Assembly (NCBI GenBank): GCA_029941135.1 | Contig: JAPYRI010000014.1 | Span: 1-43,108 of the forward strand | Length of the DNA stretch: 43,108 nucleotides | Source of the DNA: Alphaproteobacteria bacterium | GTDB taxonomy: Bacteria > Pseudomonadota > Alphaproteobacteria > JAPYRI01 | Reading direction: 5' to 3' | In this document: piece after piece, positions 10,095 to 42,985 of the stretch | Numbering within the stretch: the first letter of the stretch is position 1 | How the letters are laid out: every line of letters begins with the position of its first letter | Notes under the pieces: model-generated | Seen by the model: only the letters and a program-made list of their open reading frames with translations | What the model was told of the DNA's origin: nothing | Database searches by the model: none | Made by a program: the position numbers and the translations under genes

Positions 10095-10101
10095 AGCGTA
10101 A

Positions 10102-10896: not shown

Positions 10897-10907
10897 AAAA
10901 GGTCCCG

Positions 10908-12374: not shown

Positions 12375-12376
12375 GC

Positions 12377-13300: not shown

Positions 13301-13353
13301 GTCACTCACCTCTCGCTTTTGTTCGGTCCCACTTGACCGGGTGTCTGAAATAC

Positions 13354-13665: not shown

Positions 13666-13684
13666 TTATGCTGCCCAAGTCAGG

Positions 13685-14749: not shown

Positions 14750-14769
14750 GTTTTTGGGGCGCACAACGA

Positions 14770-15129: not shown

Positions 15130-15138
15130 GGCTATCTC

Positions 15139-16659: not shown

Positions 16660-16661
16660 AC

Positions 16662-16934: not shown

Positions 16935-16947
16935 GACATTTGGTTGC

Positions 16948-17946
16948 CTAAAATTCGATGCCGATTTTGGCGAGACGGGCGTGCAGCTCCAAGATTCTGA
17001 CGTCCATTGCTTGGGCCGCCCCATCGCCCAGGACATGTTCCGAGATTGGCTTGAATGCGTCTTGTGCCCGCCCCTGCCAGGTTCTAATCCATTCGCTTAT
17101 CTGGTCACGATTTGAGTCGGACTCAGCAGCCACCACCTTGAGCAGTGCATCAACCCAGCGCCGGCTGTCCGCGTACCAATCGACGGCAAATTCGTTCAAC
17201 AACGACACCGGCGCGCCGCCGTAATTTATGCCGATGGCATCAAAGGTCTGGAACACCAATGGGTGGATAATCGAATCCATGGCAACGTTTTGGGCCACTA
17301 AAACTTCAAACCAATCATCCACGACAAAGCTGTCTTCGACCATGTGGCGCAGGCCCTGCCACATGGAGTCGTGGAGCCACTCTTCCTTCGCCGTCCCGAG
17401 GCTGTCGCCACTGTTGCCGTCCATCATCAGGCCAACGCGGCTGATCATTTGGGCGATGCCCAAACGATCAGTGGCCGCAAACATGGTCGCTTGGGTGATC
17501 GCGGTACCGTAGCCGTAGTCCGTCATCAGGCAATTGTTCATGTTCGCACCCCACTCGTAATGACGGAGGGGAATAAGATATGCGCGCACCTTGTCGAGCC
17601 ATGCCGGATCAACGCTCGAGAGCAAGTTGCGCTTGGCGACGAACTTGAAGTTCTTTTCTTGGGCTTCCATCATGCGCGCGCGCGCGATGGTGTACGTACC
17701 GTAGTAAAACTGCCGCGGGTCGCGAAACGCATACCAGTCGGCCATACCAATTTTTGTCCGGCTGCGGTCGAAAAGCTCGTGCTTCGGATCCCACAAAGGG
17801 CGGTAATGGAAATTTTCCGTCGGTTGAACATCAAGCGTCGCTTCGTCGTAACGGGACCCCGGCTTGTCAGCGCCCAGTCGCCGCGCCACGTTGGCAAACG
17901 TCTGACGACGGGGCTCTACCCCAGATGTCTTGATGTCCAGTGTCAC
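16948..17946 (-). CDS. dmpL: Phenol hydroxylase beta subunit P1
   Basis: The protein has 332 residues (DmpL about 331), starting at GTG 17946 behind GGGAGGG. It is the catalytically inactive ferritin-like partner of DmpN in the hydroxylase core. Family segments: TENFHYRPLWDPKHELFD, DPRQFYYGTY and RHYEWGANMNN. It is the first gene of the operon here, since the small assembly gene dmpK, which precedes dmpL in Pseudomonas, is absent. Confidence 0.95.
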   Translation of the reverse strand: MTLDIKTSGVEPRRQTFANVARRLGADKPGSRYDEATLDVQPTENFHYRPLWDPKHELFDRSRTKIGMADWYAFRDPRQFYYGTYTIARARMMEAQEKNFKFVAKRNLLSSVDPAWLDKVRAYLIPLRHYEWGANMNNCLMTDYGYGTAITQATMFAATDRLGIAQMISRVGLMMDGNSGDSLGTAKEEWLHDSMWQGLRHMVEDSFVVDDWFEVLVAQNVAMDSIIHPLVFQTFDAIGINYGGAPVSLLNEFAVDWYADSRRWVDALLKVVAAESDSNRDQISEWIRTWQGRAQDAFKPISEHVLGDGAAQAMDVRILELHARLAKIGIEF

Positions 17947-23300: not shown

Positions 23301-23758
23301 GCGCTATCGGGTCCAAGTCCGTCAAAGAACGCACGCACATCCGCAAGACTGGTGGCACCATTGGTCCCGGGAACCAGCGGGACACCGCATTTTTTAGCAA
23401 GTTTCCGCGCAGCCGCTTTGTCGCCGAATGTCTCCAGTGTTTCTGCTTCAGGCCCCACAAATGTAAGACCGGCGGCGCCACATGCCCTTGCAAACTCGGC
23501 ATTTTCGCTCAAAAACCCGTATCCCGGATGCACAGCATCACAATTGGTATCGCGGGCAATCTCCAGAAGACGTGTGCCATTCAAATAAGCGGCCACACCT
23601 TTTGCACCCAATGAAACCGCCTCGTCGGCTTTTCTGGGGTGCAGCGCTTCGGAGTCGTCGTCCGAATACACGGCGACACTATCAATCCCCAATTCGGCCG
23701 CCGCGTGCATGATCCGGATTGCGATTTCGCCCCGATTGGCGATCAGCAACTTGTTCAT
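20384..23758 (-). CDS. Single-chain acyl-CoA carboxylase (BC-BCCP-CT fusion)
   Basis: The protein has 1124 residues, with start ATG at 23758 after AGGAAGAG. Domains: biotin carboxylase 1 to about 450 (ATP-grasp loop GGGGRGM at 161-167; EANPRLQVEHTVTE at about 292-305), biotin carrier about 515-590 with the biotin lysine Lys553 (EAMKMEH), then carboxyltransferase about 605-1124 with oxyanion segments EGGGGRPGD and SGYCFAGNAV. It carboxylates an acyl-CoA using ATP and bicarbonate. This layout is known for single-chain long-chain acyl-CoA carboxylases, which take a wide range of acyl-CoA substrates; the actual substrate here is unknown. It is last of four minus-strand genes with gaps of 61, 22 and 31 bases. 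Confidence 0.93.
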   Translation of the reverse strand: MNKLLIANRGEIAIRIMHAAAELGIDSVAVYSDDDSEALHPRKADEAVSLGAKGVAAYLNGTRLLEIARDTNCDAVHPGYGFLSENAEFARACGAAGLTFVGPEAETLETFGDKAAARKLAKKCGVPLVPGTNGATSLADVRAFFDGLGPDSAMMIKAIAGGGGRGMRVVHRADELDEAFARCCSEAAQSFDNGDVYAEKFLPRVRHIEVQIVGDGSGAVNHLWERECSIQRRQQKIVEIAPSPSLNPDLREKLIAAATKLAAETNYLGLGTFEFLVDAEGVGSHDFFAFIEANPRLQVEHTVTEQVTGMDLVKMQLRLAQGARLADLGLDGAPPPTQGYAIQLRINMETLDPDGSVRPSGGTLGAFEIPFGPGIRVDTSGFVGYRTNPNFDSLLAKLIGHSRSMDYRDVVTRAYRALCEFKIEGVSSNIPFLQNLLRQPAFLENQIYTGFVDENAAQLAAANGDDHRKLYVDNRPTEPRRAGAKIDAVDPLAVLDYARTDDRPKASSPVEIKGPDGTVPLLAPMQGTIISVVVSVGDAVHPGQPVLIMEAMKMEHVIKAEIGGTVRVLAVAPADTVYEGDPLAYVEAGDVAIAEVAAEEDVDLDYIRPDLAENVERHRVTLDEARPAAVERRHNRGHRTARENIEDLIDDDSFIEYGALTVAARRGRYSIEELIDRTPADGMVAGLAHVNGDLIAPEKARCAVISYDYMVLAGTQGTKNHEKKDRMFNIIKRRRLPLVFFCEGGGGRPGDVDTIVAGSLHITTFHQFAELSGSVPLVGVTSGYCFAGNAVLLGCCDVIIATEDSNIGMGGPAMIEGGGLGVFRPEEVGPMREQVPNGVVDIAVKDEAEAVKVAKQYLSYFQGRVSDWTCADQRWLRRAIPENRLRVYDVREVIEALADTGSVLEIRKAFGAGMITSFARVEGRPIAIIANNPLHLGGAIDSPAADKAARFMQLCNAFDIPLLFLCDTPGNMVGPEIEKTALVRHCCRLFVIGANLSVPFFTVVLRKAYGLGAQGMAAGGFHNPLFSVAWPTAEFGPMGLEGAVKLGFRDQLEAIEDPEERKVEFERMVAEAYDTGKALSAASLFEIDDVIDPADTRRWISSALDTPYPSDRPAGQRSPWIDTW

Positions 23759-25909: not shown

Positions 25910-27604
25910 TCAGGCACTGCGCAAAACCTGGCCCGAAAAGGCGCCGGTGTGCTCGCCGCTCACCATGAACACTTGACCATTTACGATCGTGTACGGATAT
26001 CCCTCTGCCCGTTGTATGTAGCGTCCGGCGCCGGTTGGAAAATCATGCACGAATTCAGGGATATGAAGTCCAAGACCGTCAAAATTGATCACGTTCACAT
26101 CGGCGCACGCGCCCGGCGCCAGCGTGCCCCGGCCGGAAAGCCCATAAAGTGCCGCTGGTTCGGCGGTCAACTTGTGAATAGCTTGTTCGATCGTAAAAAA
26201 TTCACGTTCTCTCACCCAATAAGTAAGCAAGTATGTGGGCTGGCTGGCATCCATGATCTGTCCACAATGGGCGCCAGAATCCCCTAGGCCGAGAACGACA
26301 TTCGGGTCTTTCAACATGCGTTCAACGGCTTCCAATTCAGGGTTGAGGAATGGAAAATTGAACAAGGTAAGTCCGTCGTCTTTGAGTGACAGAGTAATAA
26401 ACGCGTCCGGCGCGCTGGTTCCCAATCGCTCAGCATGGGCCGCAAGACTATCTTCGGGAAGACTGTCATAGCGCAGGTTATCCCGGGACAGTACGTATAC
26501 CTGGCTCATATCCAGGGGCGGCGGATCCTCCACCGCCTGCTTGACCATGTCGGCCCGATACTCCGGGTTTTTCAGTTTTGCGAGTTTTTCCTCAAGAGTT
26601 AAGCCACGCAGTGCGCGCCAAGCCGGAGCCCGGTCGAAAAAGGTTCGGTTCTGAAATCCGAACAAGACGCCGATGCCGCGAGTCGTGGATTGAGGAAATA
26701 ATTTAGCGCCGCGTTTGGTGCCATTCTCAACTTGATCCAACACGTCGGCATAGGCGCCCAACGCTTCCCGACCCTGCGCAAGTCCAAATGTCACAGGACG
26801 GCCGGTATCCAGGCTCACATCGACCATCCATTTAACTTCTGTAATCAGTTTCTTGGCGACCGTTTCGGGGTCGGTGCCATTAATGCCGGTGGCGGCCTCG
26901 ACCACGCCCCGATTTTGTTCCCCTAAGGCCGCGCAAATGCCCTTTAATTCTTCAATCGTCGCATAAGTCCCGGGGACAGCGTCTCCCGCCGGAGTTACAT
27001 GAAGCGGCGTACGCGAGGTCGAAAACCCAAGTGCCCCACCAGCAATGGCTTCTGAAACCGAGGCATGCATGCGGGCGATCTGATCTTCTGACGCCGGTTT
27101 GTTTTCCAGCGCTTCCTCACCCATGGCATAGAGCCGAAGCGCGCAGTGACCGATTAACCCACCGGCATTGATACCCTTGGGCAGGCCATTAAGCACGGTC
27201 AAGTATTCACTGTAGTGTTCCCATGTCCACGGCATACCGGCGAGGATGCTTTTCGCCGGCACGTCTTCGACCGATTCCATCAGTCGTGCCAAATAATCAC
27301 GATCGGCTTCCTTGCACGGCGCGAACGTGACCCCGCAATTGCCCATCACGACCGAGGTAACCCCATGCCAGCACGACGATGACGCGATCGGATCCCATGT
27401 AATCTGAGCGTCTAAATGAGTATGAATATCGACAAATCCCGGCGTCACCAGGTGCCCTTCGGCGTTGATCATGCGAGTCGCCGCGCCGTCCACGTCGCCG
27501 ACCGCCACGATGCGATCGCCGGAAATAGCGACGTTGCCCCGGTAACCGGGCCGACCCGTCCCGTCAATAATCGTGCCGCCTTTAATGAGAATGTCAAATT
27601 TCAT
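25910..27604 (-). CDS. D-aminoacylase-like amidohydrolase
   Basis: The protein has 564 residues, with start ATG at 27604. It is a member of the N-acyl-D-amino-acid deacylase branch of the amidohydrolase superfamily: a small beta domain at both ends around a metal TIM barrel. Metal ligands by pattern: His61 and His63 (HTHLDAQ), Cys90 (GNCG) as the bridging-type Cys of this family, GHCALR, and an Asp in GDSGAHCG. It would hydrolyse an N-acyl amino acid or a related cyclic or open amide. The exact substrate cannot be read from sequence, and many members have other activities. It is first gene of the operon containing the AEC carrier, hydrolase and carboxylase. Confidence 0.88.
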   Translation of the reverse strand: MKFDILIKGGTIIDGTGRPGYRGNVAISGDRIVAVGDVDGAATRMINAEGHLVTPGFVDIHTHLDAQITWDPIASSSCWHGVTSVVMGNCGVTFAPCKEADRDYLARLMESVEDVPAKSILAGMPWTWEHYSEYLTVLNGLPKGINAGGLIGHCALRLYAMGEEALENKPASEDQIARMHASVSEAIAGGALGFSTSRTPLHVTPAGDAVPGTYATIEELKGICAALGEQNRGVVEAATGINGTDPETVAKKLITEVKWMVDVSLDTGRPVTFGLAQGREALGAYADVLDQVENGTKRGAKLFPQSTTRGIGVLFGFQNRTFFDRAPAWRALRGLTLEEKLAKLKNPEYRADMVKQAVEDPPPLDMSQVYVLSRDNLRYDSLPEDSLAAHAERLGTSAPDAFITLSLKDDGLTLFNFPFLNPELEAVERMLKDPNVVLGLGDSGAHCGQIMDASQPTYLLTYWVREREFFTIEQAIHKLTAEPAALYGLSGRGTLAPGACADVNVINFDGLGLHIPEFVHDFPTGAGRYIQRAEGYPYTIVNGQVFMVSGEHTGAFSGQVLRSA

Positions 27605-30437: not shown

Positions 30438-32672
30438 TTATTCAGCAGCCTGCAACTGACCGGTTGCGAACGTAAATACAGGGGGTGTCCGCTCTGCTTC
30501 CTCGACCTCGATATCAACACTGAGACTGCTCGCACAAGTGGGACAATAGCGTTCCGCCAGGTGGACAGGCTGGTGCTGACGCCTGCGAACCTGGGTCTGA
30601 ACCGCGCCAAACAAATCGGCGAGCAGGCGGCGTCGCGGAGCAAGACGTTCTTTCCAATTATCAGCTGTGGACGCCAATTCAGTATCGCAATAGGCGCACG
30701 CCCAATGATCTTTGCCGGCTTTGACACTATTGAACCCGCCAGCCGAGGCAACATCTTTGAGGCGAAGCGTTTTGGTCGGCACCAATGCCAACCGCACGCT
30801 ATCCCGATTTTCCCAAGTGCCGTCGATATCCACTGTAAGGCCGTCTGAGCTCTCGCACACCACAGTGCCATAAAGTTCTTCGGCGGCAGAACGCGTGATG
30901 CGTGCGTCCCGCAAATCTCGATCGACAAGTTCCGGTGACCGGTGGAAAGGATCTCCCAAGCCACCTCCGCCAGACGAGATCGCCCAATACACATCACCTT
31001 GACGCAGAGGCACGTTGCTCACTTTGGCCGGTAATATGTCGAGCGTCCCCTGAAGCTTCTCAGGCGAGGACACAGATTTTCCCGCTTCCAATTGGGCAAG
31101 AACGTCGGACGAACGGATGACCGCGCTGCGTCCGGCGCCCCCCGGATAGCCGCCGGATATACCGCGGGCAGGCAGTTCAACCGCCGCCATAAAGCACGAT
31201 CCACTAAAGTTATCTACGTTCCACAGCATGTAACCCTGGTCCAGCGCCATACCCCCTCGGTTGTGCCCGGCACCGCCGGAGTTGACCTTGAAGCGGCGCC
31301 ATAAAATAAAAAACGGATCCACCAGCTCATGCACTTCCACATCCGGGAACGAAACCGCCAACGTGGTTTGGAAACCGTACATATCTTGTCCATCGCCCGT
31401 GGTTTGCGCGCCGCCGCCGATGGCGACCAAACTGTCGAGCGGAAAAATAATCGCCAATTCACCGTCTTCCTTGACCCCAAACCAGGCCGCGCCCGGCCCC
31501 GAACTGGGCGCCTGCCCAGCCACGCGATCACGTAAGGTTGCCGACGAACTGAGACTGCAAACTTGAGAAAGCACTTCGCCAACCATGCGGCCCAGACGCG
31601 CGCCAGTCTCCATATGCGCATTTGTCACTGGCGCGGGCACCACCGGATTAACAACTGTGCCGGGTCTGCCGGTGTCGATTTCGATGCAATTCCAAATGCC
31701 CTCGTTGAACGGAATATCCTGGGCGAATTGACATAAAAAGGGGGTCATCACCCCCAATCCGGCCACCGCACTGGGGGTCGCATTGATAAACGCGGCCACC
31801 TGATCCACACCGGTAAAAGTGAATTTCAGTTTGTCGCCATCGACTATCATTTCGCACGATACGGCGTGCAGGTCGGCCGTTCCCCGGCCATCGTATTCCA
31901 CCCAATCGTATGTGCGAGCTGTCCCATCCGGTAAAAGCGCGATCCGTGCACTAAGTGCTTTTTCGGTTAGTTCGATGTTGTAATCGATATAATCGTGCAA
32001 GGTGCCGAGGCCGTATTCGGCGACCAATCCGCGCATGCGTACGGCACCCGCATTGCAGGCCGCGATAAGACTGCGCACATCGTTGATGAACGACACAGGG
32101 ACGCGGACGTTCACTTCGATAAAGCTCACCCACTCAGGGTTTAGCACCCCATTGGTGCCAGCGCGCACACCGGGAAAACGAATGGCTTCTTCAAAACAAT
32201 CGTGGGCTTCCGGCGCCATACCGCTGATCGACGCGCCGCCGACATCAATTAAATGCGCATTGGTAAAAGTCCAACCGATTAGTTTCTCCCCGTCATAAAT
32301 CGGCATTACAATGCCAACGTCACCTTGATGCAGCGCGCCGACGGTGTAGGGATCATTGCAAATAAATATATCCCCGGGCTCGAGGTCATCGGGCATCCGC
32401 TTTTTTATGATCTCCTGAACCGCGATGCGTGAACTGGCAAAATGCCCGAGCACATACCCCGCCACGCCAACCTGTCGCCCTGCAGCATCAAACACAATCG
32501 CCGAAAAATCTTTCGCTTCGGTCAAAACCGGCGAGCCAGAGGTTCGCAGCAAAACGATCGCCATTTCATCAGCGATATTTTCAAACGCACACCGAACAAC
32601 TTCAGCGGTGATCGGATCTAGTGCCGACGCACTTCGCGCCACGTCGGCAGTATCTTGCGATAATTTGTCCAC
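30438..32672 (-). CDS. HyuB-type carboxylase/hydantoinase subunit with C-terminal acetone carboxylase gamma-like extension
   Basis: The protein has 744 residues from GTG at 32672, eight bases after AGGAGG; a TTG two codons earlier is too close to that site. Residues 1 to about 575 are the hydantoinase B/oxoprolinase domain (LDPITAEVVRCAFENIADEM; GDIFICNDPY; NSGGAGHNRGG). The C-terminal 90 residues carry Cys659/Cys662 (CAYC) and Cys710/Cys713 (YCPTCASSLSVDIEV), a zinc-ribbon-like pattern that resembles the acetone carboxylase gamma family (PF08882). This suggests ATP-dependent ketone carboxylation, as in acetone or acetophenone carboxylase, rather than hydantoin cleavage. The partner HyuA is encoded 12 bases upstream. 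Confidence 0.87.
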   Translation of the reverse strand: MDKLSQDTADVARSASALDPITAEVVRCAFENIADEMAIVLLRTSGSPVLTEAKDFSAIVFDAAGRQVGVAGYVLGHFASSRIAVQEIIKKRMPDDLEPGDIFICNDPYTVGALHQGDVGIVMPIYDGEKLIGWTFTNAHLIDVGGASISGMAPEAHDCFEEAIRFPGVRAGTNGVLNPEWVSFIEVNVRVPVSFINDVRSLIAACNAGAVRMRGLVAEYGLGTLHDYIDYNIELTEKALSARIALLPDGTARTYDWVEYDGRGTADLHAVSCEMIVDGDKLKFTFTGVDQVAAFINATPSAVAGLGVMTPFLCQFAQDIPFNEGIWNCIEIDTGRPGTVVNPVVPAPVTNAHMETGARLGRMVGEVLSQVCSLSSSATLRDRVAGQAPSSGPGAAWFGVKEDGELAIIFPLDSLVAIGGGAQTTGDGQDMYGFQTTLAVSFPDVEVHELVDPFFILWRRFKVNSGGAGHNRGGMALDQGYMLWNVDNFSGSCFMAAVELPARGISGGYPGGAGRSAVIRSSDVLAQLEAGKSVSSPEKLQGTLDILPAKVSNVPLRQGDVYWAISSGGGGLGDPFHRSPELVDRDLRDARITRSAAEELYGTVVCESSDGLTVDIDGTWENRDSVRLALVPTKTLRLKDVASAGGFNSVKAGKDHWACAYCDTELASTADNWKERLAPRRRLLADLFGAVQTQVRRRQHQPVHLAERYCPTCASSLSVDIEVEEAERTPPVFTFATGQLQAAE

Positions 32673-32684
32673 GACCAAATCCTC

Positions 32685-34760
32685 CTAGAGCTTCAGTATA
32701 AAATTTAAATATCCGTCGCGTTCAACCGTCGCTTCCCGCGGCACATATATAGTCGTGTCACGAACTTCAATAATACCCGGCCCTTGGAACCATGCCCCTG
32801 GTTTCATTTTTTCCGAATCATACACCGGCGTATCCAGTTGCTCACTGATATCGGGCAAAAACATGGAACATGAGCCGGTTAAGGCTTCATCCGCCGGGTG
32901 GCGTGTCACCTCAACCGGTTTCAAATCCGGCTTTTGGCGCACGGCAACGCCGGTGATCACGTAATTAATCAACATGAGGCCAGCGTCGTGCCAGGCTGTT
33001 TCGGCACCAAATTCTTCTTCATAAGCCAGGTCAAATTGTTGCCGCAGGTCTCCTTCCCCCTCTTTCAGGAGGTCTTCAGGGCTGAAATCCATATACAATT
33101 CGTTCAATTGCCCAGCGTAACGAATATCAGCGCCGTGGCGGAGTTGAATGCCTTCCCGGTCAAAACCGGCGCGTTCAATCTCGTCCAGAATTTCGCGCTC
33201 CAAATTATCGCGAGCCTCAACAATGCTGGCCAACTGGTCGCGATTTTCGACCCCCCACCCCAGTGTGATTGACTTACGGCTAATATAGTCGGCTTCCAGC
33301 AAACCGTAGGCGGAGAAGGCTGAGCTGTGATTGGGCACGATCATGTCGGCAATATTCAGTTGCCGGCAGATGGCCGCGGCAAACATCGGCAATGCACCGC
33401 CATAGGCAACGAACGTGCATTTGCGCGGGTCGTGACCTCGCTGGATCGACACGCCACGCAGCGCATTGGCCATATTGGCGACCGCCAACTTGTAGGCGCC
33501 GGCGGACGTCTCCACGGCATCCCAACCCATGGCGTCTCCTACTTCTGATACCAGGGCTTTTTTCGCCGCCTCAACGTCTAGCGCATGCCTGCCACCCAGG
33601 TAATTGTCCGGCCGCAGGAACCCGAGCGTCACCATGCAGTCGGTTATGGTTGGTGCGGTGCCGCCATTGCCGTAGCACACCGGCCCGGGGAAGGAGCCCG
33701 AGCTTTGCGGACCGACCTTCGGTACGCCCCGCGCATCGAGCCCCACAATGCTGCCGCCCCCCGCGCCAATCGACACAATATCCAGCAAGCTGATCGCGGT
33801 ATCGAAGGTGCCGATGCGGCAGCGCTGGGCGACAATTGGTTTTTCACGATGGACGAGCGTGGTGTCGAAACTGGTACCCCCCATATCACCGCACAGCAGA
33901 TTTTCAATACCGTAGCGGCGGGCGAGAGCGGCTGCCGCTATGGCTCCGCCTGCGGGCCCCGAACTGTAGAGCAGGATTGGCAGTTCGCGCACCTCGTCCG
34001 CACCGAGGACACCGCCGAGACCATTGAAGAACTCAACCGCTCGCGTGTAGCCGCGCGCGAGCAAACCGTCTGACACTTTATTGACGAAATTCTCGACCGG
34101 CGGCTGGACGAAGCAATTCAAGATCGCCGTCATCCAACGTTCGAACTCGCGGAACACGGATGCCGCGGTGACCGAACAGGTGACAAATATGTCGGGGGCG
34201 ATTTCGCGAATGATGCGTTCAACTTCACGCTCATGGGCGTCGTTTCGCGTACACCACAAGAAGCACACAGCGATCGCATCCACCCCAAGGTCCTTCAGAC
34301 GGATCACCTCGCGCTCAACCTGCTCTTTGTCCAGTGGCACAACGACATTGCCGTCCCGGTTGATACGTTCGTCAATTTCGGCGACCATTTCTTTGGCGAC
34401 AGTTTGGGGAAGATTTTGTTGCAGCTGATCGTCAAAGTCGTTCGACCTATTGCCCCGGCCAAACTGCAGGATATCGGCAAAGCCCGAGGTGACTAGGACG
34501 CCGACGCGCGCGCCCTTCATCTCGGTGATGGCGTTGGTGACAATGGTGTTGCCGTTTACAAAAGCGCGCGCGTGATTGGACAGTAAGTCATCGACCGAAA
34601 GGTCAAACTCGCTGGCCGCGCCTTCCAACGCGCTGAATATGCCTTCGCTGTAATCATCGTGAGTCGTGAGCGCCTTCGCTCTGACTACTTGATCGTCCAT
34701 GATGGCAATGAGATCAGTGTGGGTCCCGCCCACATCTATACCGATACTGATCTCGGACAT
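32685..34760 (-). CDS. HyuA-type ATP-dependent subunit (hydantoinase A/oxoprolinase, acetone carboxylase beta-like)
   Basis: The protein has 691 residues from ATG at 34760 (MSEISIGIDVGG), with AAGGGA upstream; 18 in-frame upstream codons are not conserved in the family. It has the actin-like ATPase fold: phosphate loop GIDVGGTHTD (7-16), GGTSFDTTLVHREKP and IGAGGGSIVGLD. It activates substrate or bicarbonate by phosphorylation for the reaction completed by the HyuB partner. The AGGAGG ribosome-binding site of hyuB overlaps its TAG stop, so the two are made together. The substrate is unknown; a ketone is favoured because of the gamma-like domain on the partner. Confidence 0.9.
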   Translation of the reverse strand: MSEISIGIDVGGTHTDLIAIMDDQVVRAKALTTHDDYSEGIFSALEGAASEFDLSVDDLLSNHARAFVNGNTIVTNAITEMKGARVGVLVTSGFADILQFGRGNRSNDFDDQLQQNLPQTVAKEMVAEIDERINRDGNVVVPLDKEQVEREVIRLKDLGVDAIAVCFLWCTRNDAHEREVERIIREIAPDIFVTCSVTAASVFREFERWMTAILNCFVQPPVENFVNKVSDGLLARGYTRAVEFFNGLGGVLGADEVRELPILLYSSGPAGGAIAAAALARRYGIENLLCGDMGGTSFDTTLVHREKPIVAQRCRIGTFDTAISLLDIVSIGAGGGSIVGLDARGVPKVGPQSSGSFPGPVCYGNGGTAPTITDCMVTLGFLRPDNYLGGRHALDVEAAKKALVSEVGDAMGWDAVETSAGAYKLAVANMANALRGVSIQRGHDPRKCTFVAYGGALPMFAAAICRQLNIADMIVPNHSSAFSAYGLLEADYISRKSITLGWGVENRDQLASIVEARDNLEREILDEIERAGFDREGIQLRHGADIRYAGQLNELYMDFSPEDLLKEGEGDLRQQFDLAYEEEFGAETAWHDAGLMLINYVITGVAVRQKPDLKPVEVTRHPADEALTGSCSMFLPDISEQLDTPVYDSEKMKPGAWFQGPGIIEVRDTTIYVPREATVERDGYLNFILKL

Positions 34761-34826: not shown

Positions 34827-35975
34827 TTAAAATCGTTTGGCAACCTCTTCCAGCATCACCTCGGTCGCACCGCCACCAATGGATTCGACGCGCGCGTCGC
34901 GCACCATCCGCTCAATGGCAGAATCGCGCAAGTAACCGGCGCCGCCGTGAAATTGCTGGCAGTCGTACAACACGGCGTTGACCAGTTCGCCGCACAACGC
35001 TTTGACCATCGACACTTCTTGCACGCAATCGCATCCCTGAGCATCCAGCCAAGCGGTATGATAAAGCATCTGACGCGCAGCCAATACCTCTGCTTGCCGC
35101 ATGGACAAACGCTGACGAATAACCTGCTTATCCCAGAGGGCGCCGCCAAAGGCCTTGCGGTCCTTTACATAGTCGATCGTAAAGTCGATGGCATACTGAG
35201 CTTCGCCCATGGCCTGAGCGCCGACCACCAGTCGCTCATTCTGGAAGTTTTGCATAATCGCGTAGAAGCCTTTGTTGACTTCGCCCAGGATATTCTCTTC
35301 CGGCACCCGGCAATCGTCGAATATAAGTTCTGCGGTATCCGAACTCAGCCAGCCCATCTTGTTAAGGGCGCGGCCGACGCTGAAACCCTCGGTCCCAGCT
35401 TCAACGATGAAAATCGTAATGCCCCTCGACCCTTTGACCGACGGATCGGTGCGGACGGCGACAAAGTACACGTCGGCGTGCACGCCATTGGTGATGAACA
35501 TTTTGGTGCCATTGATGATCCAGTGATCACCATCTTTGACCGCGCGGGTTTTGAGACCGGCCACGTCAGATCCGGCATCGGCTTCGGTGACTGCCACCGC
35601 CGTGATCAACTCGCCTGTGATGATCTTGGGCATATACTTTTGCTTTTGTGCTTCCGTGCCTGCGTTCGACAAATGGGGCGATGCCATGTCGGTATGGACC
35701 AGCACCGTGATCGCGAAACCTCCGTAGGTCGAGCGCCCGAGCTCCTCCGCCAAGAGGACAGTCGCGAGCGTATCAAGCTCCGATCCGCCATACTTCTCAG
35801 GATACCTAATGCCTAGAAGCCCAAGCTCACCCATTTTTTTGAGCACGCTTCGGGGGGTCATGCCGTCTTCTTCCCACTGGTCACCGTAGGGGCGTACTTC
35901 GGTATCGACAAAGCGTCGGATCTGATCCCTCAGCATGTCATGGGTTTCGTCTAAATAAATGTTCTTTTCAATCAT
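34827..35975 (-). CDS. Acyl-CoA dehydrogenase
   Basis: The protein has 382 residues from ATG at 35975, which overlaps the stop of the preceding biotin carboxylase gene by eight bases (ATGATTGA). It is an FAD-dependent desaturase of an acyl-CoA: AVTEADAGSD (FAD/substrate segment about 128-137), IINGTKMFITNG and the C-terminal FHGGAGYLRDSAIERMVRDAR. The usual Glu of the YEGT motif is replaced (SIGGGATEV). Glu247 in QNERLVVG aligns by pattern with the catalytic Glu of isovaleryl-CoA and long-chain acyl-CoA dehydrogenases. So a branched or long-chain substrate fits, in line with the carboxylase genes beside it. Confidence 0.92.
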   Translation of the reverse strand: MIEKNIYLDETHDMLRDQIRRFVDTEVRPYGDQWEEDGMTPRSVLKKMGELGLLGIRYPEKYGGSELDTLATVLLAEELGRSTYGGFAITVLVHTDMASPHLSNAGTEAQKQKYMPKIITGELITAVAVTEADAGSDVAGLKTRAVKDGDHWIINGTKMFITNGVHADVYFVAVRTDPSVKGSRGITIFIVEAGTEGFSVGRALNKMGWLSSDTAELIFDDCRVPEENILGEVNKGFYAIMQNFQNERLVVGAQAMGEAQYAIDFTIDYVKDRKAFGGALWDKQVIRQRLSMRQAEVLAARQMLYHTAWLDAQGCDCVQEVSMVKALCGELVNAVLYDCQQFHGGAGYLRDSAIERMVRDARVESIGGGATEVMLEEVAKRF

Positions 35976-38004
35976 TTGGAAAACCCTGATCTTCATCTTG
36001 TGGGTCGGCGCTCGCGATCACCGCCAGGCGATCACCGCCATTTACTGTATCGCCGGGTTGAGCGTTAATCGCCTCCACGACACCGCCTATAGGCGCGCAA
36101 AGTTGCTGGAACAGTTTCATCGCTTCCATGACAAACACCGGTTGGCCGATCTCGACCGTGTCGCCGTTTGAGACCATTACTTCGGCAATCAATCCTGGGG
36201 TTGGGGCAATTACGGAATTGCCGGTTGCCACTGGTTTTACAATTTCACCCAGCGACACGTTTTTGGAACTGAGCACGTCAAATACCGGGTCGCCGGCGGC
36301 GCAGTGGCAGGTTACGTGCACACCATCAACTGACACATCTATACTTTGTCTCAGCGTTTGCTCGGTATAGGTGAGGCGGCCCGCACGCCAAGTTGCCTCC
36401 CTTACCTGGAGTACAGCTTTACCATCGCGTTCAATTGTAAAGGTGCCGCCTCGGCCAATGACCGTGGTTTCACCGAACGTCTGATCGCCGGTACGGATGT
36501 AATAGACAGCTGCGCCACGGCGTCCACTTCTTTCACCCACTCGCCACCCGCCCAAGGTGGACCAGGGGGATTGTGAGCCGCTCCCTTCGCGTTCCAGGTG
36601 ATAGGCAAGTGCGGCGACGGCTACGTCAGTGTTGGTTATGGGGGAAGAACTCCAGCCATCGGGAAATCCTTCGCGTAAGCAACTGGTCAGATGACGGCCG
36701 GCTTGAAAATCGTCGAGATGTAAGACATCGCGTAAATAGCGGGTGTTGACCCCCACGCCGGCGATCCTGAACCGGGATAACCCCGCGTCCAATTTTTGAA
36801 TTGTTGTTTCCCGGTCCACACTCATGGCTATCACTTTGGCGAGCAGGGAGTCATAGTAAGGTGTCACCCTACTGCCCTGCTGCACGCCGCTATCGATGCG
36901 CAATCCTTCCATGCTCGGTTCGGCATAGCTGGTAATAGTACCGGTTTGCGCGCGATAATTTTCCGCCGAATTTTCCGCCGCGACCCGCGCTTCCATGGCC
37001 CAGCCCTTACATACGATGTCGTCCTGTGCCAACGAAAGGACGTCGCCACCGGCAATGCGCAACTGCCATTCCACCAAGTCGATACCGGTGATCATTTCAG
37101 TGACCGGGTGTTCGACCTGAAGGCGCGTATTCATCTCGAGGAAAAAGGCATGGCCGGTTGCGGCATCGACGATAAATTCGATCGTCCCCACACTGTCATA
37201 ACCAATGGTGACAGCAAGCTTCACCGCACTCTCAAGGATTTGCTGCCGCAACTCAGATGGGAGGCTGGGTGCCGGGGCTTCTTCAATGATCTTTTGGTAG
37301 TTGCGCTGAACCGAACAATCCCGCTCAAATAAGTGCCGTACGTTGCCGTGTTGATCAGCCATTATCTGAACTTCAATGTGGCGCGGGCTTTCGACATATC
37401 GCTCCAGCAAGAGTTTCGGATCGCCGAAGGCTGCCTGCGCTTCTTGCCGTGCGAGGCTCAAGTTCTCAACCACAGTGTTCAATTCATCGACCCGGCGCAT
37501 GCCCCGGCCACCACCGCCCGCGCTCGCCTTAATGAGCAGCGGCATGCCAATCTTTTCGGCTTCCCGCAGCAATCCCTCATCACTTTGATCGTCACCGTGG
37601 TATCCGGGCACGCATTCGACTCCCGCACCGATGGCGATGCGCTTGGCTTCAATCTTGTCGCCCATTGTTGCAATGGCGTCAGGTGACGGTCCGACAAATA
37701 CGAGACCGGCTTCTACACAACGACTGGCAAAGCCAGCGTTCTCGGCCAAAAATCCATAACCCGGGTGGATGGCTTCAGCGCCGGTAAGCCGCGCGGCATC
37801 GATAATCTTATCACCATCTAAATAGCTTGCGCGCGCCTCGGGCGGCCCAATGTTGACCGCCTCGTCAGCCAATTGCACATGCAGCGCATCGACGTCAGCG
37901 TCGGAATAGACCGCGACTGACCGCAGACCAAGGCGGGCGCAGGCGCGAATGAGCCGGACGGCAATCTCGCCCCGATTGGCAATGAGAACTTTGCTGAACT
38001 TCAT
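35968..38004 (-). CDS. Acyl-CoA carboxylase alpha subunit (biotin carboxylase + BCCP)
   Basis: The protein has 678 residues. It has a biotin carboxylase domain (1 to about 450; ATP-grasp GGGGRGM, EMNTRLQVEHPVTE), a connecting region, and a C-terminal biotinyl domain with Lys630 in EAMKLFQQ. It is of the methylcrotonyl/geranyl/propionyl-CoA carboxylase alpha type. It supplies carboxybiotin to the carboxyltransferase encoded nine bases upstream. The biotin motif reads AMKL instead of AMKM, which is seen in other carriers. Methylcrotonyl-CoA or a terpenoid acyl-CoA is a candidate substrate, but the usual glutaconyl-CoA hydratase and lyase are not present here. Confidence 0.93.
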   Translation of the reverse strand: MKFSKVLIANRGEIAVRLIRACARLGLRSVAVYSDADVDALHVQLADEAVNIGPPEARASYLDGDKIIDAARLTGAEAIHPGYGFLAENAGFASRCVEAGLVFVGPSPDAIATMGDKIEAKRIAIGAGVECVPGYHGDDQSDEGLLREAEKIGMPLLIKASAGGGGRGMRRVDELNTVVENLSLARQEAQAAFGDPKLLLERYVESPRHIEVQIMADQHGNVRHLFERDCSVQRNYQKIIEEAPAPSLPSELRQQILESAVKLAVTIGYDSVGTIEFIVDAATGHAFFLEMNTRLQVEHPVTEMITGIDLVEWQLRIAGGDVLSLAQDDIVCKGWAMEARVAAENSAENYRAQTGTITSYAEPSMEGLRIDSGVQQGSRVTPYYDSLLAKVIAMSVDRETTIQKLDAGLSRFRIAGVGVNTRYLRDVLHLDDFQAGRHLTSCLREGFPDGWSSSPITNTDVAVAALAYHLEREGSGSQSPWSTLGGWRVGERSGRRGAAVYYIRTGDQTFGETTVIGRGGTFTIERDGKAVLQVREATWRAGRLTYTEQTLRQSIDVSVDGVHVTCHCAAGDPVFDVLSSKNVSLGEIVKPVATGNSVIAPTPGLIAEVMVSNGDTVEIGQPVFVMEAMKLFQQLCAPIGGVVEAINAQPGDTVNGGDRLAVIASADPQDEDQGFPND

Positions 38005-38013: not shown

Positions 38014-39612
38014 CTACATCCGGTATATGGGTGTGCGCCGGTCAAATTCGGGCACGGTGGTCACAAGTGCTAAGCAAAGTCCGAGGATATCTCTCGTCAG
38101 AGCCGGCTCAATCAGACCGTCGTCCCAAAGCCGTGAAGTCGCGTAGTAAGGATCGCTCTGCTCGGCATACTGGGCGCGCACGGTTTGTTCAATCTCAGCC
38201 AGTTCGTCCGCTTCCGGAGGCGGCAATTTAACATTGGTTTGCCGCAACTCGAGCATCACGTTGGACGCGATATCGGCGGACATGGTGGCAACCTCGGCAT
38301 TTGGCCAGGCAAACAGAAAATCCGGCCGAAAGCCGCGACCGCACATGCCGTAATTACCGGCGCCATAGGAGCCGCCGACGATGATCGACAGCCGCGGCAC
38401 TTGTGCAATGGACATTGCGTAAACCATCTTTGCGCTGTTCTTGGCGATGCCGCCCCGTTCCGCCTCGGTGCCGACCATGTAGCCGGTGATGTTGTGCAAG
38501 AACACCACCGGAATGCCCTGCTGATCGCAACTGGTAATGAAGTGTGCTCCTTTGAGCGCTGACTCCGAGAACAACGCGCCGTTGTTGCCGAGAATGCCAA
38601 TTTGGTGACCATGAATTTTTGCCGTCCCGCAAACGAGAGTTTCCCCCCATTCAGGCTTAAACTCCTGAAAGGCACTGCCATCCACAAGCCGCGCGATGAT
38701 CTCGCGCACATCATACGGGATGCGGCGGTCATGACTGATGACACCATTTAGTTCTTCAGGATCGTAGAGTGGCGGGGTTACCGGTCCGGCACTTTCAAAT
38801 CGCGGCGCGGCACCCAGGTCAGCGACCATATCACGCACCAGCGCCAATGCATGCGGTTCATCGCGGGCCAAATGATCGGAAACGCCGGACACTCGAGTAT
38901 GCATTGCGGCTCCGCCCAAGGTATCACCGTCTACGGTTTCGTTGATCGCGACTTTGACAATTGAGGGTCCGCCCAGGTGAATGCGGGCGTTGCCTTCTAC
39001 CATGACCACCTGGTCGGATAAGGCCGGGATATAAGCCCCACCGGCTGTGCAGCCGCCGAACACCGCCGAGATTTGTCGCAGTCCTGATGCCGACATGTTG
39101 CATTGGCGGTAAAAGCTGTTGCCGAAGTGGTCACGATCCGGGAACACCCGGTGTTGTTCGGGTAGGAAAGCACCGCCGCAATCGACCAAATAAATAGCCG
39201 GCAATCGATTGTCGCCGGCAATTTCCAGCGCGCGGTTTTGCTTCTTCACTGTTTCGTGGAAAAACGAGCCGCCTTTCACCGTCGCATCGTGGGCAATGAT
39301 CATGCAGGCATGGCCGGACACAATCCCAATTCCAGTAACGATACCGGCGCTCGGTACTTCATTGCCGTACTGGCCCCAGGCCGCCAGTGACGACAGCTCC
39401 AAGAACGGAGTTGCCGGATCCACCAAGCGGTCTATGCGGTCACGGGCGAGGATCTTGCCCCGTTGATGATGACGGTCACGCAATTTTTGTCTGCCACCCG
39501 TCATGGCCTGCGCGGTGCGCTCCCGCAAAGTTTTTAACAATCCGTCATAGTGTTCTTGATTGGCAGCGAACACCTCTGAACGAGGATCGATGTGACTTCG
39601 GATGCGGCTCAT
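38014..39612 (-). CDS. Acyl-CoA carboxylase beta subunit (carboxyltransferase)
   Basis: The protein has 532 residues, the usual MccB/AtuC length. It is a crotonase-fold carboxyltransferase with AHDATVKGGSFFHETVKKQNR, FGGCTAGGAYIPALSDQ (N-terminal half), and NITGYMVGTEAERGGIAK and IIVGGSYGAGNYGMCGR (C-terminal half), all typical of methylcrotonyl-CoA-type enzymes. It transfers CO2 from carboxybiotin to an acyl-CoA. ATG at 39612 overlaps the stop of the tetR gene (ATGA). Confidence 0.93.
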   Translation of the reverse strand: MSRIRSHIDPRSEVFAANQEHYDGLLKTLRERTAQAMTGGRQKLRDRHHQRGKILARDRIDRLVDPATPFLELSSLAAWGQYGNEVPSAGIVTGIGIVSGHACMIIAHDATVKGGSFFHETVKKQNRALEIAGDNRLPAIYLVDCGGAFLPEQHRVFPDRDHFGNSFYRQCNMSASGLRQISAVFGGCTAGGAYIPALSDQVVMVEGNARIHLGGPSIVKVAINETVDGDTLGGAAMHTRVSGVSDHLARDEPHALALVRDMVADLGAAPRFESAGPVTPPLYDPEELNGVISHDRRIPYDVREIIARLVDGSAFQEFKPEWGETLVCGTAKIHGHQIGILGNNGALFSESALKGAHFITSCDQQGIPVVFLHNITGYMVGTEAERGGIAKNSAKMVYAMSIAQVPRLSIIVGGSYGAGNYGMCGRGFRPDFLFAWPNAEVATMSADIASNVMLELRQTNVKLPPPEADELAEIEQTVRAQYAEQSDPYYATSRLWDDGLIEPALTRDILGLCLALVTTVPEFDRRTPIYRM

Positions 39613-40232
39613 TTTTCGGGCTCCCTAGCCGGCAGTAGTCCGTGCAGTAGTATTTCCGCATAGCTATCGGCGAGATTTGCCAAATTGCCGCGTTTCGGAT
39701 CGAACCACTCGATGGTCGCGTTAAGCGCTCCGATCACCATCAAACGAAATGCTTTCAAATCAACATTCGCGCGAACGCCGTTTTGGACGGCAACTTGCTG
39801 CAGCATGTGGTCCCACAGGGCTTCATAGTCCCGGCGCGCTTTCAGGTTGGCCGTCCTCACCGGTTCCGGCACTTGCCCGTAGATGCGCACATTGGCGGCG
39901 GTGTAATCGCTAAACTCGAACATTGCGCGCAGGTGGGCAAGGATACCTGCACGAACTGTCGCGCTCGCCGAAACGCCCGACGGCAGATTCTCGATGGTTT
40001 GACGGACTTCGCCATGCACCATCGAAATTCCCAAATCCAGAATTTCGATCACGATCGCCTGCTTGGACTCGAAGTGATAGTAAACGCTGCCGGCTTTCAT
40101 CCCGGCGGCGGTGGCAATCGCCCGCAAGGACACCGACGCATAACCATCCGCACTGAACAAGCCGGCCGCCGCATCCAAAATGCGGGTGCGCGACATGTCA
40201 GCTTTATCGGATTTCCTCGTGGCTACGTTCAT
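39609..40232 (-). CDS. TetR family transcriptional regulator
   Basis: The protein has 207 residues. The N-terminal helix-turn-helix (about 14-60) is typical: RTRILDAAAGLFSADGY, then LRAIATAAGMKAGSVYYHF. The C-terminal ligand domain is divergent as usual. It lies inside the operon between the CitE-like and carboxyltransferase genes, with an ATGA overlap to the latter. It therefore probably represses its own operon and responds to an acyl-CoA or acid intermediate. A palindrome over the predicted promoter at 42986-42995 is a candidate operator. Confidence 0.92.
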   Translation of the reverse strand: MNVATRKSDKADMSRTRILDAAAGLFSADGYASVSLRAIATAAGMKAGSVYYHFESKQAIVIEILDLGISMVHGEVRQTIENLPSGVSASATVRAGILAHLRAMFEFSDYTAANVRIYGQVPEPVRTANLKARRDYEALWDHMLQQVAVQNGVRANVDLKAFRLMVIGALNATIEWFDPKRGNLANLADSYAEILLHGLLPAREPEK

Positions 40233-40268: not shown

Positions 40269-41147
40269 TCATCCGCTAAATTGCCTGGCAATTTTGAGCA
40301 CACGTTCGGCTTGCGTCAGATGCGGCTTGTCGAGCATTTTGCCGTCAAGACTGAGCGTGCCCTCATCCGGGTTTTGAGCGAACAAATCGACCACGGCGCG
40401 CGCATGTTCAATCTCGGCCACGTTGGGCATGAAAGCCTCATTGATTGGCGCCACCTGCGCCGGGTGAATGGCGATCTTGCCGAGAAACCCGTCCCGGCGC
40501 GCATCGCTACAGGTTTTTCGCAACCCATCGTCGTCTTTGAAATTTGTAAACGCCGTATCCACTGCCTGCACACCGCATGCATACGCCGCCACCAGACATT
40601 GCGTGCGGGCGAGCACATAGGGCGGAGTTAGGTTGCCATGCTCGTCACTGTTGGATGACGCTCCCAAGGCGGCGCTTAGATCTTCGGCCCCCCAGGAGAT
40701 AGCCACAACGCGTGAGTTAACTTCGGTGTAGCTGTTAATATTCAGCATCGCCGCCGCGGTTTCCGTGGCCAGCGACAGCACTTTGGTCGATCCAACATCA
40801 AACCCGTGCTCGGTCTCGAGCACGTCCAGATAGTTGCCCAGAAGCTCAGTGTCGAGCGCGTGTTCTGCTTTTGGGAGAAAGAATCCATCCGGCCGGCCTT
40901 GGATAACCCCGGCCAAATCCAACAGAGCATGAGGTCCGTCGAGCGGGTTCATTCTGACCCAAAGTTGACTGATAGAACGGTCAGCGGATTTGAGGTAATC
41001 GCACACCATTTTACGCGCCACCGGCTTGCGCGAATCGACCACCGAATCTTCCAAATCGAGGATCAAGGCGTCGGCGCCGAGAGACGCGCCTTTGCCGAGT
41101 TTCTTCTCGCTATCGCCGGGAACAAACATCCATGAACGTAAAATCAT
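40269..41147 (-). CDS. CitE-like CoA-ester lyase (HpcH/HpaI family)
   Basis: The protein has 292 residues. It is a Mg-dependent TIM-barrel lyase or thioesterase acting on beta-hydroxyacyl-CoA (citramalyl-, malyl- or methylmalyl-CoA type): FVPGDSEKKLGKG and LILDLEDSV at the N-terminus, an Arg in WVRMN, metal-binding Glu in FFLPKAEHA and Asp in ISWGAEDLSAALG. ATG overlaps the stop of the MaoC gene (ATGA). With the MaoC hydratase it would hydrate an unsaturated acyl-CoA and split the product, as in the mesaconyl/methylmalyl-CoA systems; the substrate is unproven. Confidence 0.9.
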   Translation of the reverse strand: MILRSWMFVPGDSEKKLGKGASLGADALILDLEDSVVDSRKPVARKMVCDYLKSADRSISQLWVRMNPLDGPHALLDLAGVIQGRPDGFFLPKAEHALDTELLGNYLDVLETEHGFDVGSTKVLSLATETAAAMLNINSYTEVNSRVVAISWGAEDLSAALGASSNSDEHGNLTPPYVLARTQCLVAAYACGVQAVDTAFTNFKDDDGLRKTCSDARRDGFLGKIAIHPAQVAPINEAFMPNVAEIEHARAVVDLFAQNPDEGTLSLDGKMLDKPHLTQAERVLKIARQFSG

Positions 41148-41602
41148 GACTGCGGCTTCTTCAGCATCAGGCCGCTACGATCACAAATTCCGACCAGCTC
41201 ATCTTTTTGGTTGTAGGCGCGGTGAGTGAACGTAACGATGCCGTTGTTGGGGCGCGACTTGCTTTCGCGCTTGTCCTTTATTTCGGTCACAAAATGTAAG
41301 GTGTCGCCGAGAAACACCGGCGCTGGAAACCGCACGTTGTCCCAACCGAGATTACCGACCGTGGTGCCAAGTGTGGTGTCGTAGACCGACACGCCGACCA
41401 TCAGCGCCAAGGTGAAGCAACTGTTCACGATGCGCTGGCCAAACTCGGTTTCGTTTTTGCAGTACTCTTCGTCCAAATGCAAAAGTGCCGGATTGTGGGT
41501 CATCGTGGTGAACAAAAGGTTGTCGGTTTCTGTGATTGTGCGCCGAATGGGGTGGTCAAAAGTCTGGCCAACCTCAAATTCTTCAAAATATAGCCCTGCC
41601 AT
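41144..41602 (-). CDS. MaoC family (R)-specific enoyl-CoA hydratase, mesaconyl-CoA hydratase-like
   Basis: The protein has 152 residues, a single hot-dog domain. The hydratase segment TTMTHNPALLHLDEEYC has His and Asn/Asp in the MTHN pattern of mesaconyl-CoA/methylmalyl-CoA dehydratases, in place of the DxNPxH form. SCFTLALMVGVSVYD is the central helix. The start ATG at 41602 follows GGAGG with good spacing. A TATAAT-like A/T-rich stretch lies just upstream (about 41620-41635), so a second promoter is possible. It is coupled to the CitE-like gene. Confidence 0.9.
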   Translation of the reverse strand: MAGLYFEEFEVGQTFDHPIRRTITETDNLLFTTMTHNPALLHLDEEYCKNETEFGQRIVNSCFTLALMVGVSVYDTTLGTTVGNLGWDNVRFPAPVFLGDTLHFVTEIKDKRESKSRPNNGIVTFTHRAYNQKDELVGICDRSGLMLKKPQS

Positions 41603-41667: not shown

Positions 41668-42849
41668 CTAAAAACTATCCAGAGAAGCAAGATCGTCAAT
41701 CGCCGCGGTCATGCGCTCGACCATTGAGAGCGACATCTCTTCGGTTTGCATGGCCGCCGGCAAAAACTCAGACGGGCACAATGTGGGTGTCCAATTCAGC
41801 AGTGCATGAAACATTTGCTGCCGGTAGTAGGTCCAAGTTTCGTTAAAACCAAACGTATGCCCGGACACTTCGGCGAAACGCGCCAGATACCGCCGCACAA
41901 GGTCCTCTTCCCACGCCCGTCTGTCGTCGATGGTAAGCGCCCCTGAAATTGCATAGGATAAATCCCGCGACCAGTGTCCCCGGCCGGCGCATTGCCAATC
42001 GCACAAGCCCATGCGGCCTTTGTCGGTTTGATACCAATTGCCGATGTGAACGTCGGAGTGAAGGAAAGTTTCAGGCAGTTCCTGGTGAATTTTGAGTGCC
42101 GCCATGGTCGCCGGCCAGATCTCGTCCCGCCGCGCGAGCAAGCGATCAGGAATAACATGCGCGCCTTCGGTTAGTGCGCGCTCGGTGGATTTATCCACAT
42201 GCAACTTGGTAACGCCGCCCATGAACCAGCGGGTAAACTGGGCCACCCATTTGAAGTCCGTTTCAAACCTGGGATCATCATAAAAATGAGCATGAAGACC
42301 GGCCAATAATTCGACCATGTCTTCAGCCATTTCGCGGGTCACATACGTTTCCCAGTTGGTGAACGTTGCCCCTTTGATGGCCACCAGGTCTTCAAGAATA
42401 TGTATCGCCGCGCAGGAATTGCGATCCACTGTCGAGTGGAAACAGAGTGGGATTTCAAGATCGAGCTCGGGCCGCAATTGAGTGTAGAAGCGGCCCTCAG
42501 TACGAGCGTGACCGGTTATGCCCACCATCATGCGATTTTCGACGGTGGGTAGCGTCTTGGTGAAGATGGACGCGGGTAATTTTGCCACCACTCCGGCCTG
42601 ATTGTAATTCACTTTTAAACGATGGCGGGCGTGGGTACCGGCGCTAACGAGAGAAACCTCGAAATCTATTACTTCCGCGCCTATTGCATCACCGCACAAT
42701 ACGTCGGTCAACCACTCGCGGGTAACCGCATCAATGGTCGGCACGATATCACCGGACTTGGTGGCCTTTGGCTTTAAACGCTGCTCTTCGGCAATGACTT
42801 GCGCGATACGCTCAGACGCGACCTCAACTGTCTCCTGTGTCTTAGCCAT
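41668..42849 (-). CDS. Phosphotransferase of the aminoglycoside phosphotransferase/ecdysteroid kinase-like fold
   Basis: The protein has 393 residues from ATG at 42849 after GGGGGAG; a 25-codon upstream extension crosses a hairpin and is not used. The kinase-like C-terminal lobe has the catalytic loop FLHSDVHIGNWY (Brenner-type HxDxHxxN) and the metal-binding DW in GLCDWQCAGRG. It phosphorylates a small molecule, not an antibiotic by context. Such proteins are common in catabolic clusters with acyl-CoA dehydrogenases, and some may activate or dehydrate a hydroxy substrate. It is first of the nine-gene operon; the true substrate is unknown. Confidence 0.85.
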   Translation of the reverse strand: MAKTQETVEVASERIAQVIAEEQRLKPKATKSGDIVPTIDAVTREWLTDVLCGDAIGAEVIDFEVSLVSAGTHARHRLKVNYNQAGVVAKLPASIFTKTLPTVENRMMVGITGHARTEGRFYTQLRPELDLEIPLCFHSTVDRNSCAAIHILEDLVAIKGATFTNWETYVTREMAEDMVELLAGLHAHFYDDPRFETDFKWVAQFTRWFMGGVTKLHVDKSTERALTEGAHVIPDRLLARRDEIWPATMAALKIHQELPETFLHSDVHIGNWYQTDKGRMGLCDWQCAGRGHWSRDLSYAISGALTIDDRRAWEEDLVRRYLARFAEVSGHTFGFNETWTYYRQQMFHALLNWTPTLCPSEFLPAAMQTEEMSLSMVERMTAAIDDLASLDSF

Positions 42850-42861
42850 GGAACTCCCCCC

Positions 42862-42892
42862 AAAGCCCGGTATCTCGCAGAGACCGGGCTTT
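42862..42892 (-). promoter_or_regulatory. Leader hairpin just before the nine-gene operon
   Basis: AAAGCCCGGT (42862-42871) pairs perfectly with ACCGGGCTTT (42883-42892), and an inner TCT/AGA extends the stem. On the minus strand the structure ends a few bases before the GGGGGAG site of the phosphotransferase gene. It is terminator-shaped but lies inside the predicted leader, with GGGG instead of a T run after it. An attenuator or mRNA-stability element is likely; it could instead end a small upstream transcript. Confidence 0.6.
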
Positions 42893-42985
42893 AATCTACT
42901 GAGCAAAACGCGTGGCTGCGGCAAATTGAGTCATCTGCCACTGGTCCCGTTCAGCACGTTTCGCCGCGTAAATTATTAAATCTAA

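Follow-up and report, generated by a model that had tools for sequence, protein, structure and literature searches.

The window, that is, the whole stretch of 43,108 nucleotides of contig JAPYRI010000014.1 analysed here, carries on its minus strand a HyuA/HyuB pair whose HyuB protein ends in a fused domain that is, as judged by sequence and predicted fold, homologous to the gamma subunit of acetone carboxylase (Acx) and acetophenone carboxylase (Apc), the resemblance being more than chance. An ATP-dependent ketone carboxylase was found to be the best single explanation of this HyuA/HyuB-gamma pair, and we hold it with roughly even confidence.

Gene pair, motifs and the fused tail

The following features were assigned to the pair, with HyuB residues numbered from the TTG codon.

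30438..32678, minus strand: HyuB-gamma, hydantoinase B core (residues 21-577) with fused gamma domain (Pfam; model and fold search)
30513..30722, minus strand: fused Acetone_carb_G (gamma) domain, residues 653-722 (PF08882 above cut-off; fold search; alignment)
30534..30545, minus strand: second CxxC, CPTC 712-715, predicted Zn ligands (alignment)
30687..30698, minus strand: first CxxC, CAYC 661-664, predicted Zn ligands (alignment)
32253..32255, minus strand: HyuB H142, predicted catalytic metal ligand (aligned with CapB H124 and Acx H175)
32319..32330, minus strand: HyuB H117xxD120, predicted catalytic metal ligands (aligned with CapB H99/D102 and Acx H150/D153)
32508..32510, minus strand: HyuB D57, predicted catalytic metal ligand (aligned with CapB D41 and Acx E89)
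32685..34760, minus strand: HyuA, ASKHA-type ATP-binding subunit, 691 aa from ATG 34760 (PF05378, PF01968, PF19278)
33681..33698, minus strand: HyuA adenosine motif GSFPGP (GxxPGP), residues 355-360 (sequence motif)
33864..33887, minus strand: HyuA phosphate-2 motif DMGGTSFD, residues 292-299 (sequence motif)
34713..34736, minus strand: HyuA phosphate-1 motif DVGGTHTD, residues 9-16 (motif definition from PMC8453981 and PMC5214803)

The hyuB gene is a single open frame of 746 codons counted from TTG. A GTG two codons downstream, which is preceded at 8 nt by AGGAGG and gives a product of 744 aa, appears the likelier start because of its better ribosome-binding site. Counted from this GTG, the gamma-domain cysteines lie at 659/662 and 710/713, exactly where the first-pass annotation had placed two CxxC pairs.

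Pfam analysis of HyuB revealed PF02538 (Hydantoinase_B) at residues 21-577 with an E-value of 2e-112, and PF08882 (Acetone_carb_G) at residues 653-722 with an E-value of 1.7e-5 and 25.5 bits, passing the gathering cut-off of 21; the HMM check that had been proposed for the C-terminal region was thus positive. In the alignment, separate gamma proteins matched the tail in register at the CxxC...CxxC spacing and at the motifs (N)WK and CPxC(A/G), and all four tail cysteines aligned with their Zn-binding cysteines. The tail was modelled with AlphaFold (pLDDT 82, pTM 0.72) and the model submitted to a fold search, in which the top five PDB matches were gamma chains (5l9w_C, 5svb_C/F, 5svc_C, 5m45_C); probabilities of 0.98-1.00 were obtained for Acx and Apc gamma chains only, with modest E-values of 0.02-0.07. 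Next came low-probability matches to yippee-type Zn domains, to which Acx gamma has been likened earlier (PMC5543143). Since the alignment behind the tail model contains four classical gamma rows, the single-sequence Pfam match is the cleaner homology test. Profile, alignment and fold search agree on the likeness to Acx gamma that had been noted at first pass. As that annotation also held, Acx and Apc carry gamma as a separate subunit (PMC5214803, PMC5543143); they are defined by separate gamma genes, and gamma is absent from any hydantoinase-type (Hyd) complex (PMC5214803).

The metal tetrad D57/H117/D120/H142 is intact in the aligned window HyuB and also in its close relatives; mutants in the corresponding site of the caprolactamase subunit CapB (D41, H99, D102, H124) are inactive (PMC8453981). 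The model of whole HyuB was mediocre (pLDDT 67.8) and matched Acx alpha, Apc beta, N-methylhydantoinase and CapB at E-values of at most 1e-31. In HyuA all three ATP-binding motifs of the family are present, and its closest PDB kin are N-methylhydantoinase 7hk5, Apc alpha 5l9w_B and caprolactamase 6yra_A.

Distribution, phylogeny and relation to characterised enzymes

That the fusion might be unique to the window genome was rejected, as it recurs across bacterial and archaeal groups. Four other proteobacterial MAGs/SAGs (loci L009-L012) encode close relatives with the same fusion (61-78% identity in HyuA, 62-74% in HyuB), and more distant fused relatives are located on plasmids of Natrinema, Halorientalis, two Rhodococcus species, Mycobacterium and Niveispirillum; several further alphaproteobacterial genomes have it as well. 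A second fused HyuA/HyuB-gamma pair is present in the window's own genome on contig C53 (L021:1494-5899), directly after an AMP-binding CoA ligase and near enoyl-CoA hydratases, acyl-CoA dehydrogenase and CaiB. Separate short gamma genes (about 93 residues) right after hyuB were found in Haloterrigena, Natronosalvus, Halomarina and nine alphaproteobacterial loci. Open frame length proved unreliable as a measure of fusion, L058 and L067 being separate genes in a long open frame. Any PF08882 match was obtained in 24 of the 385 genomes sampled from the same class. The gamma cysteines are all intact in the window HyuB and its close relatives and are lost in the fused proteins of genome G288 (L056), R. 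opacus (L077) and R. koreensis (L107). Contig C50 of the own genome carries Acx-like and Apc-like clusters; the gamma of the former (L022:11418-11939) lacks the zinc cysteines (TKSTSGF..., DPIDGT) and keeps the fold motifs. None of the papers searched describes a HyuB-gamma fusion; the design, shared by several bacterial and archaeal groups, appears to be undescribed.

Unrooted trees of HyuA and of the HyuB core (LG+C20 PMSF) were concordant on the gamma-less clade and on the placement of the window group. A single clade with 100/99 support unites all 15 HyuA rows that lack gamma, namely N-methylhydantoinase, caprolactamase and 13 rows drawn from 12 genomic loci; outside it lie Apc, Acx and three further groups, all gamma-bearing. 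Group I, comprising the window, its close relatives, Natrinema, R. pseudokoreensis and G288, is the sister of the gamma-less clade (99-100/97). Group II contains the C53 pair, haloarchaea, Mycobacterium, R. opacus and alphaproteobacteria, with fused and split forms mixed, and group III contains alphaproteobacterial split sets with the fused Halorientalis; the fused Niveispirillum falls near group III with weak placement. Because the gamma-less set was hand-picked, five loci were added after the tree: three without gamma joined the hydrolase clade, a Sinorhizobium HyuA-HyuB-gamma set joined the Acx clade, and R. koreensis with its degenerate, Cys-less tail joined group I. The fused label requires five changes on the tree; therefore, fusion or fission was repeated. 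Gamma presence requires a single change on the unrooted tree in this sample; placing the root would decide between a loss of gamma in the hydrolases and a gain in the other groups.

The window HyuA and HyuB lie outside the Acx, Apc and Hyd clades. With Acx (Xanthobacter autotrophicus, 5svb/5m45) the pair shares an ATPase subunit, a metal subunit and a gamma part that is predicted to be a Zn finger in the window protein, as well as the single ATPase subunit without alpha-prime; in contrast, Acx gamma is encoded by a separate acxC downstream of acxB, and the Acx metal site has Glu89 in place of D57. With Apc (Aromatoleum aromaticum, 5l9w) it shares the two CxxC pairs of gamma and the Asp-His-Asp-His metal site, and several of its kin have a CoA ligase neighbour as in the apc operon (benzoylacetate-CoA ligase logic); unlike Apc, it has neither alpha-prime (one hyuA in the operon) nor epsilon, and gamma is fused. 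The NCBIfam ApcC/ApcD equivalog cut-off was missed (322 and 120 bits vs. 1500). The Hyd enzymes (hydantoinase, caprolactamase, 5-oxoprolinase; 7hk5, 6yra) share the two polypeptides in the order A then B and the ATP and metal motifs, but have no gamma domain, and the sampled Hyd loci are without acyl-CoA neighbours; the caprolactamase equivalog cut-off was likewise missed (455 and 222 bits vs. 1000). Since gamma is fused and the pair falls outside the Acx clade, alpha-prime is missing for Apc, and a gamma is present outside the Hyd clade, we conclude from sequence comparison that the window enzyme is not a member of Acx, Apc or Hyd and is a variant of the same superfamily.

The window operon and the neighbourhoods of relatives

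The pair ends a tightly packed minus-strand run, in agreement with its earlier description as lying at the end of an acyl-CoA operon. The genes, nearly all of which abut or overlap, follow each other as APH phosphotransferase, MaoC, CitE-type lyase, TetR, carboxyltransferase, biotin carboxylase, acyl-CoA dehydrogenase, HyuA and HyuB-gamma.

34827..35996, minus strand: acyl-CoA dehydrogenase, FadE19-like position (Pfam; PDB)
35968..38004, minus strand: biotin carboxylase/BCCP subunit with MCC-type BT domain, AccA1-like (PF21139 and others)
38014..39612, minus strand: carboxyltransferase, MCC-beta/AccD1-like (PDB matches)
39609..40232, minus strand: TetR regulator (Pfam)
40269..41147, minus strand: HpcH/CitE-type lyase (PF03328; PDB kin including Rv2498c 6aq4)
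41144..41602, minus strand: MaoC-type hydratase (PF01575)
41668..42924, minus strand: APH-type phosphotransferase, possible first gene of the run (PF01636)

For the carboxyltransferase, PDB matches were AccD1 4q0g (E 1e-177), MCC beta 3u9r (E 3e-173) and geranyl-CoA carboxylase 5ikl (E 2e-123); identity as a geranyl-CoA carboxylase was rejected, MCC/AccD1 being far closer. The APH gene product may possibly be a hydroxyacyl-CoA kinase partnering the acyl-CoA dehydrogenase; in Mycobacterium branderi and Haloterrigena, too, gamma-bearing HyuAB have APH-type genes nearby.

The gene families of the run are those of the mycobacterial leucine operon (AccD1, AccA1, FadE19, MaoC, CitE), which yields acetoacetate as its final product. 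In mycobacteria, the TetR protein BkaR controls accD1, accA1, fadE19, the Rv2499c hydratase gene and citE (PMC3920632), and the CitE protein Rv2498c converts (R)-HMG-CoA to acetyl-CoA and acetoacetate (PMC6689899). The window operon shares these five enzyme families and a TetR gene, but differs in gene order, in having hyuA and hyuB-gamma at its end and APH upstream, and in lacking bkd genes. Acetoacetate loses CO2 to give acetone; therefore, a ketone carboxylase in such an operon would be a salvage step, a role that by analogy may also apply in the window genome. The own genome also encodes SCOT-type CoA transferases and a second MCC-type operon. Elsewhere in the window, the minus strand of 7347-17946 holds genes for a multicomponent phenol hydroxylase and, after them, those of a meta-cleavage pathway with extradiol dioxygenase, aldehyde dehydrogenase, aldolase and FAH-type hydratase. 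A 1124-aa protein encoded at 20384-23758, also minus, has a biotin carboxylase-like start and a carboxyltransferase region (20453-21901) and thus seems to be an acyl-CoA carboxylase in a single chain. The Hpe/Acv pathway for hydroxyphenylethanones likewise has, within one operon, a carboxylase and an ATP-dependent step that activates a substrate bearing a ketone; there, however, carboxylation is biotin-dependent, and HpeHI, a rifampin phosphotransferase-type dikinase, was rejected as HyuAB kin for its different fold (PMC12167813).

The operon context is not conserved, since no leucine-type genes were present in the flanks of the close relatives L009-L012. All of these have an Amidohydro_3 gene beside hyuAB (L009:3770-5506, L010:3216-4946, L011:10197-11927, L012:10197-11927), the 74% orthologue of which lies in the own genome on contig C128 near the contig end; the Amidohydro_3 of the window (25910-27604) was hence rejected as the relatives' partner. 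A CaiB-type CoA transferase is found near hyuAB in L009, L011 and L012. In L010 (a 72-76% relative), a gene for a beta-keto acid cleavage enzyme (BKACE, PF05853; L010:10239-11111) follows 21 bp downstream of hyuB on the same strand, and the group III locus L058 has one, too (L058:9039-9965), so that BKACE stands beside gamma-bearing hyuAB in two separate clades. BKACE acts on beta-keto acids, the kind of product that a ketone carboxylase should yield. A CoA ligase adjoins hyuAB in L017, L021 and L078; in L077 it lies one gene further off.

Acyl-CoA genes (dehydrogenase, CoA ligase, CaiB, enoyl-CoA hydratase, MaoC, thiolase, BKACE) lay no more than 6 kb from hyuAB in 12 of the 28 loci with gamma and in 0 of the 12 without it (Fisher p 0.007), a contrast to be read as supportive only, because loci are non-independent, the sets were hand-picked and the BLAST-based counts are lower bounds, BLAST having missed the BKACE of L058, found by Pfam alone. 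Among the gamma loci this signal stems mainly from groups I and II. Group III sets, nine alphaproteobacterial HyuA-HyuB-gamma sets among them, lie in several genomes beside isochorismatase-type hydrolases, Bmp-type ABC transporters or molybdenum-dehydrogenase genes, which suggests that some gamma enzymes act in N-heterocycle breakdown; thus, gamma alone does not fix the chemistry. Neighbours among kin further include P450s, a dihydroxyacetophenone dioxygenase-like protein, HMG-CoA lyase and reductase and, near L009, flavin monooxygenase and ring-cleavage-like genes.

Predicted reaction and competing explanations

For the window enzyme, the analysis established homology, motifs, domain architecture, clade and operon content; from these we infer reaction and substrate as well as oligomeric state and metal occupancy. 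As a ketone carboxylase, HyuA would phosphorylate bicarbonate and a carbonyl compound able to enolise, which is most likely a ketone; the products of this step would pass to the metal site of HyuB, where the C-C bond would form and a beta-keto acid be released. The putative Zn-finger tail may be structural, by analogy with what has been proposed for Acx and Apc. Given the operon, acetone would be a natural substrate, or else a longer methyl ketone left behind when a beta-keto acid has lost CO2.

The first-pass proposal that the layout indicates a ketone carboxylase is partly supported by gamma homology, by the place in the operon and by the separate clade of gamma-less, hydrolase-type HyuAB; the intact ATP motifs and metal tetrad and the acyl-CoA, BKACE and CoA ligase neighbours also favour a ketone carboxylase. 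Against it count the operon context that close relatives do not share, and the SCOT-type CoA transferases, second MCC-type operon and Acx-like and Apc-like clusters of the own genome. It is not proven by gamma, because the gamma-bearing group III sits beside isochorismatase-type hydrolases, and the sister relationship of the window group to the hydrolases in both trees also weakens it. These two points equally speak for the main rival, an ATP-dependent hydrolase of a cyclic amide, imide, hydantoin or lactam that keeps gamma as a structural relic, as does the Amidohydro_3 gene of the relatives with its orthologue elsewhere in the own genome. We regard such a hydrolase as a real, if lesser, possibility: no characterised hydrolase has gamma (PMC5214803), none was sampled with it in the hydrolase clade, and the operon has acyl-CoA genes and no cyclic-amide transporter or amidase. 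The position of Tyr136, the proposed acid/base of CapB, is Met or Ile in the aligned window group, which also argues against a hydrolase, although Tyr136 was rejected as a hydrolase marker given that the hydrolases themselves vary there; no residue is known to tell carboxylases from hydrolases (PMC5214803).

The diverse neighbours among kin, from P450s to HMG-CoA lyase, and the phenol hydroxylase/meta-cleavage cluster in the same window would fit an ATP-dependent enzyme, be it a kinase/activator or a carboxylase, whose carbonyl substrate is no simple ketone and could be a lactone, a thioester or a cyclic enone of aromatic or terpenoid breakdown. We consider this unlikely, as a free beta-keto acid is what the neighbouring CoA ligase and BKACE genes indicate; to our knowledge, no family member with lactone, thioester or cyclic-enone activity has been described. 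That the tail is a metal-free vestige and the pair inactive or serving assembly only could be read from the loss of gamma cysteines in L056, L077, L107 and the Acx-like gamma of the own genome, but is highly improbable for the window, which keeps the four cysteines, the metal tetrad and the ATP motifs, cysteines and tetrad being kept in close relatives, too.

Starting again from a ketone carboxylase, a broader reading is offered tentatively and held to be rather doubtful: the gamma-bearing groups outside Acx and Apc (the window clade and at least two more, from bacteria and haloarchaea, whose gamma is either fused or encoded by a separate 93-residue gene) would be undescribed biotin-independent ketone carboxylases, of which the window member would re-carboxylate acetone or a longer methyl ketone derived from beta-keto acids in a leucine/isoprenoid-type operon, and the hydrolases would be gamma-losing descendants. 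The papers searched contained nothing on isoprenoid ketone carboxylation. We know of no biochemically characterised biotin-independent ketone carboxylases of the HyuAB family other than acetone and acetophenone carboxylases. Gamma is the least understood part of these enzymes. Fused to the metal subunit and placed phylogenetically between carboxylases and hydrolases, it forms part of a simple two-gene system that makes both its role and the carboxylase/hydrolase switch directly testable, and proteins annotated merely as hydantoinase B or oxoprolinase may be CO2-fixing enzymes.
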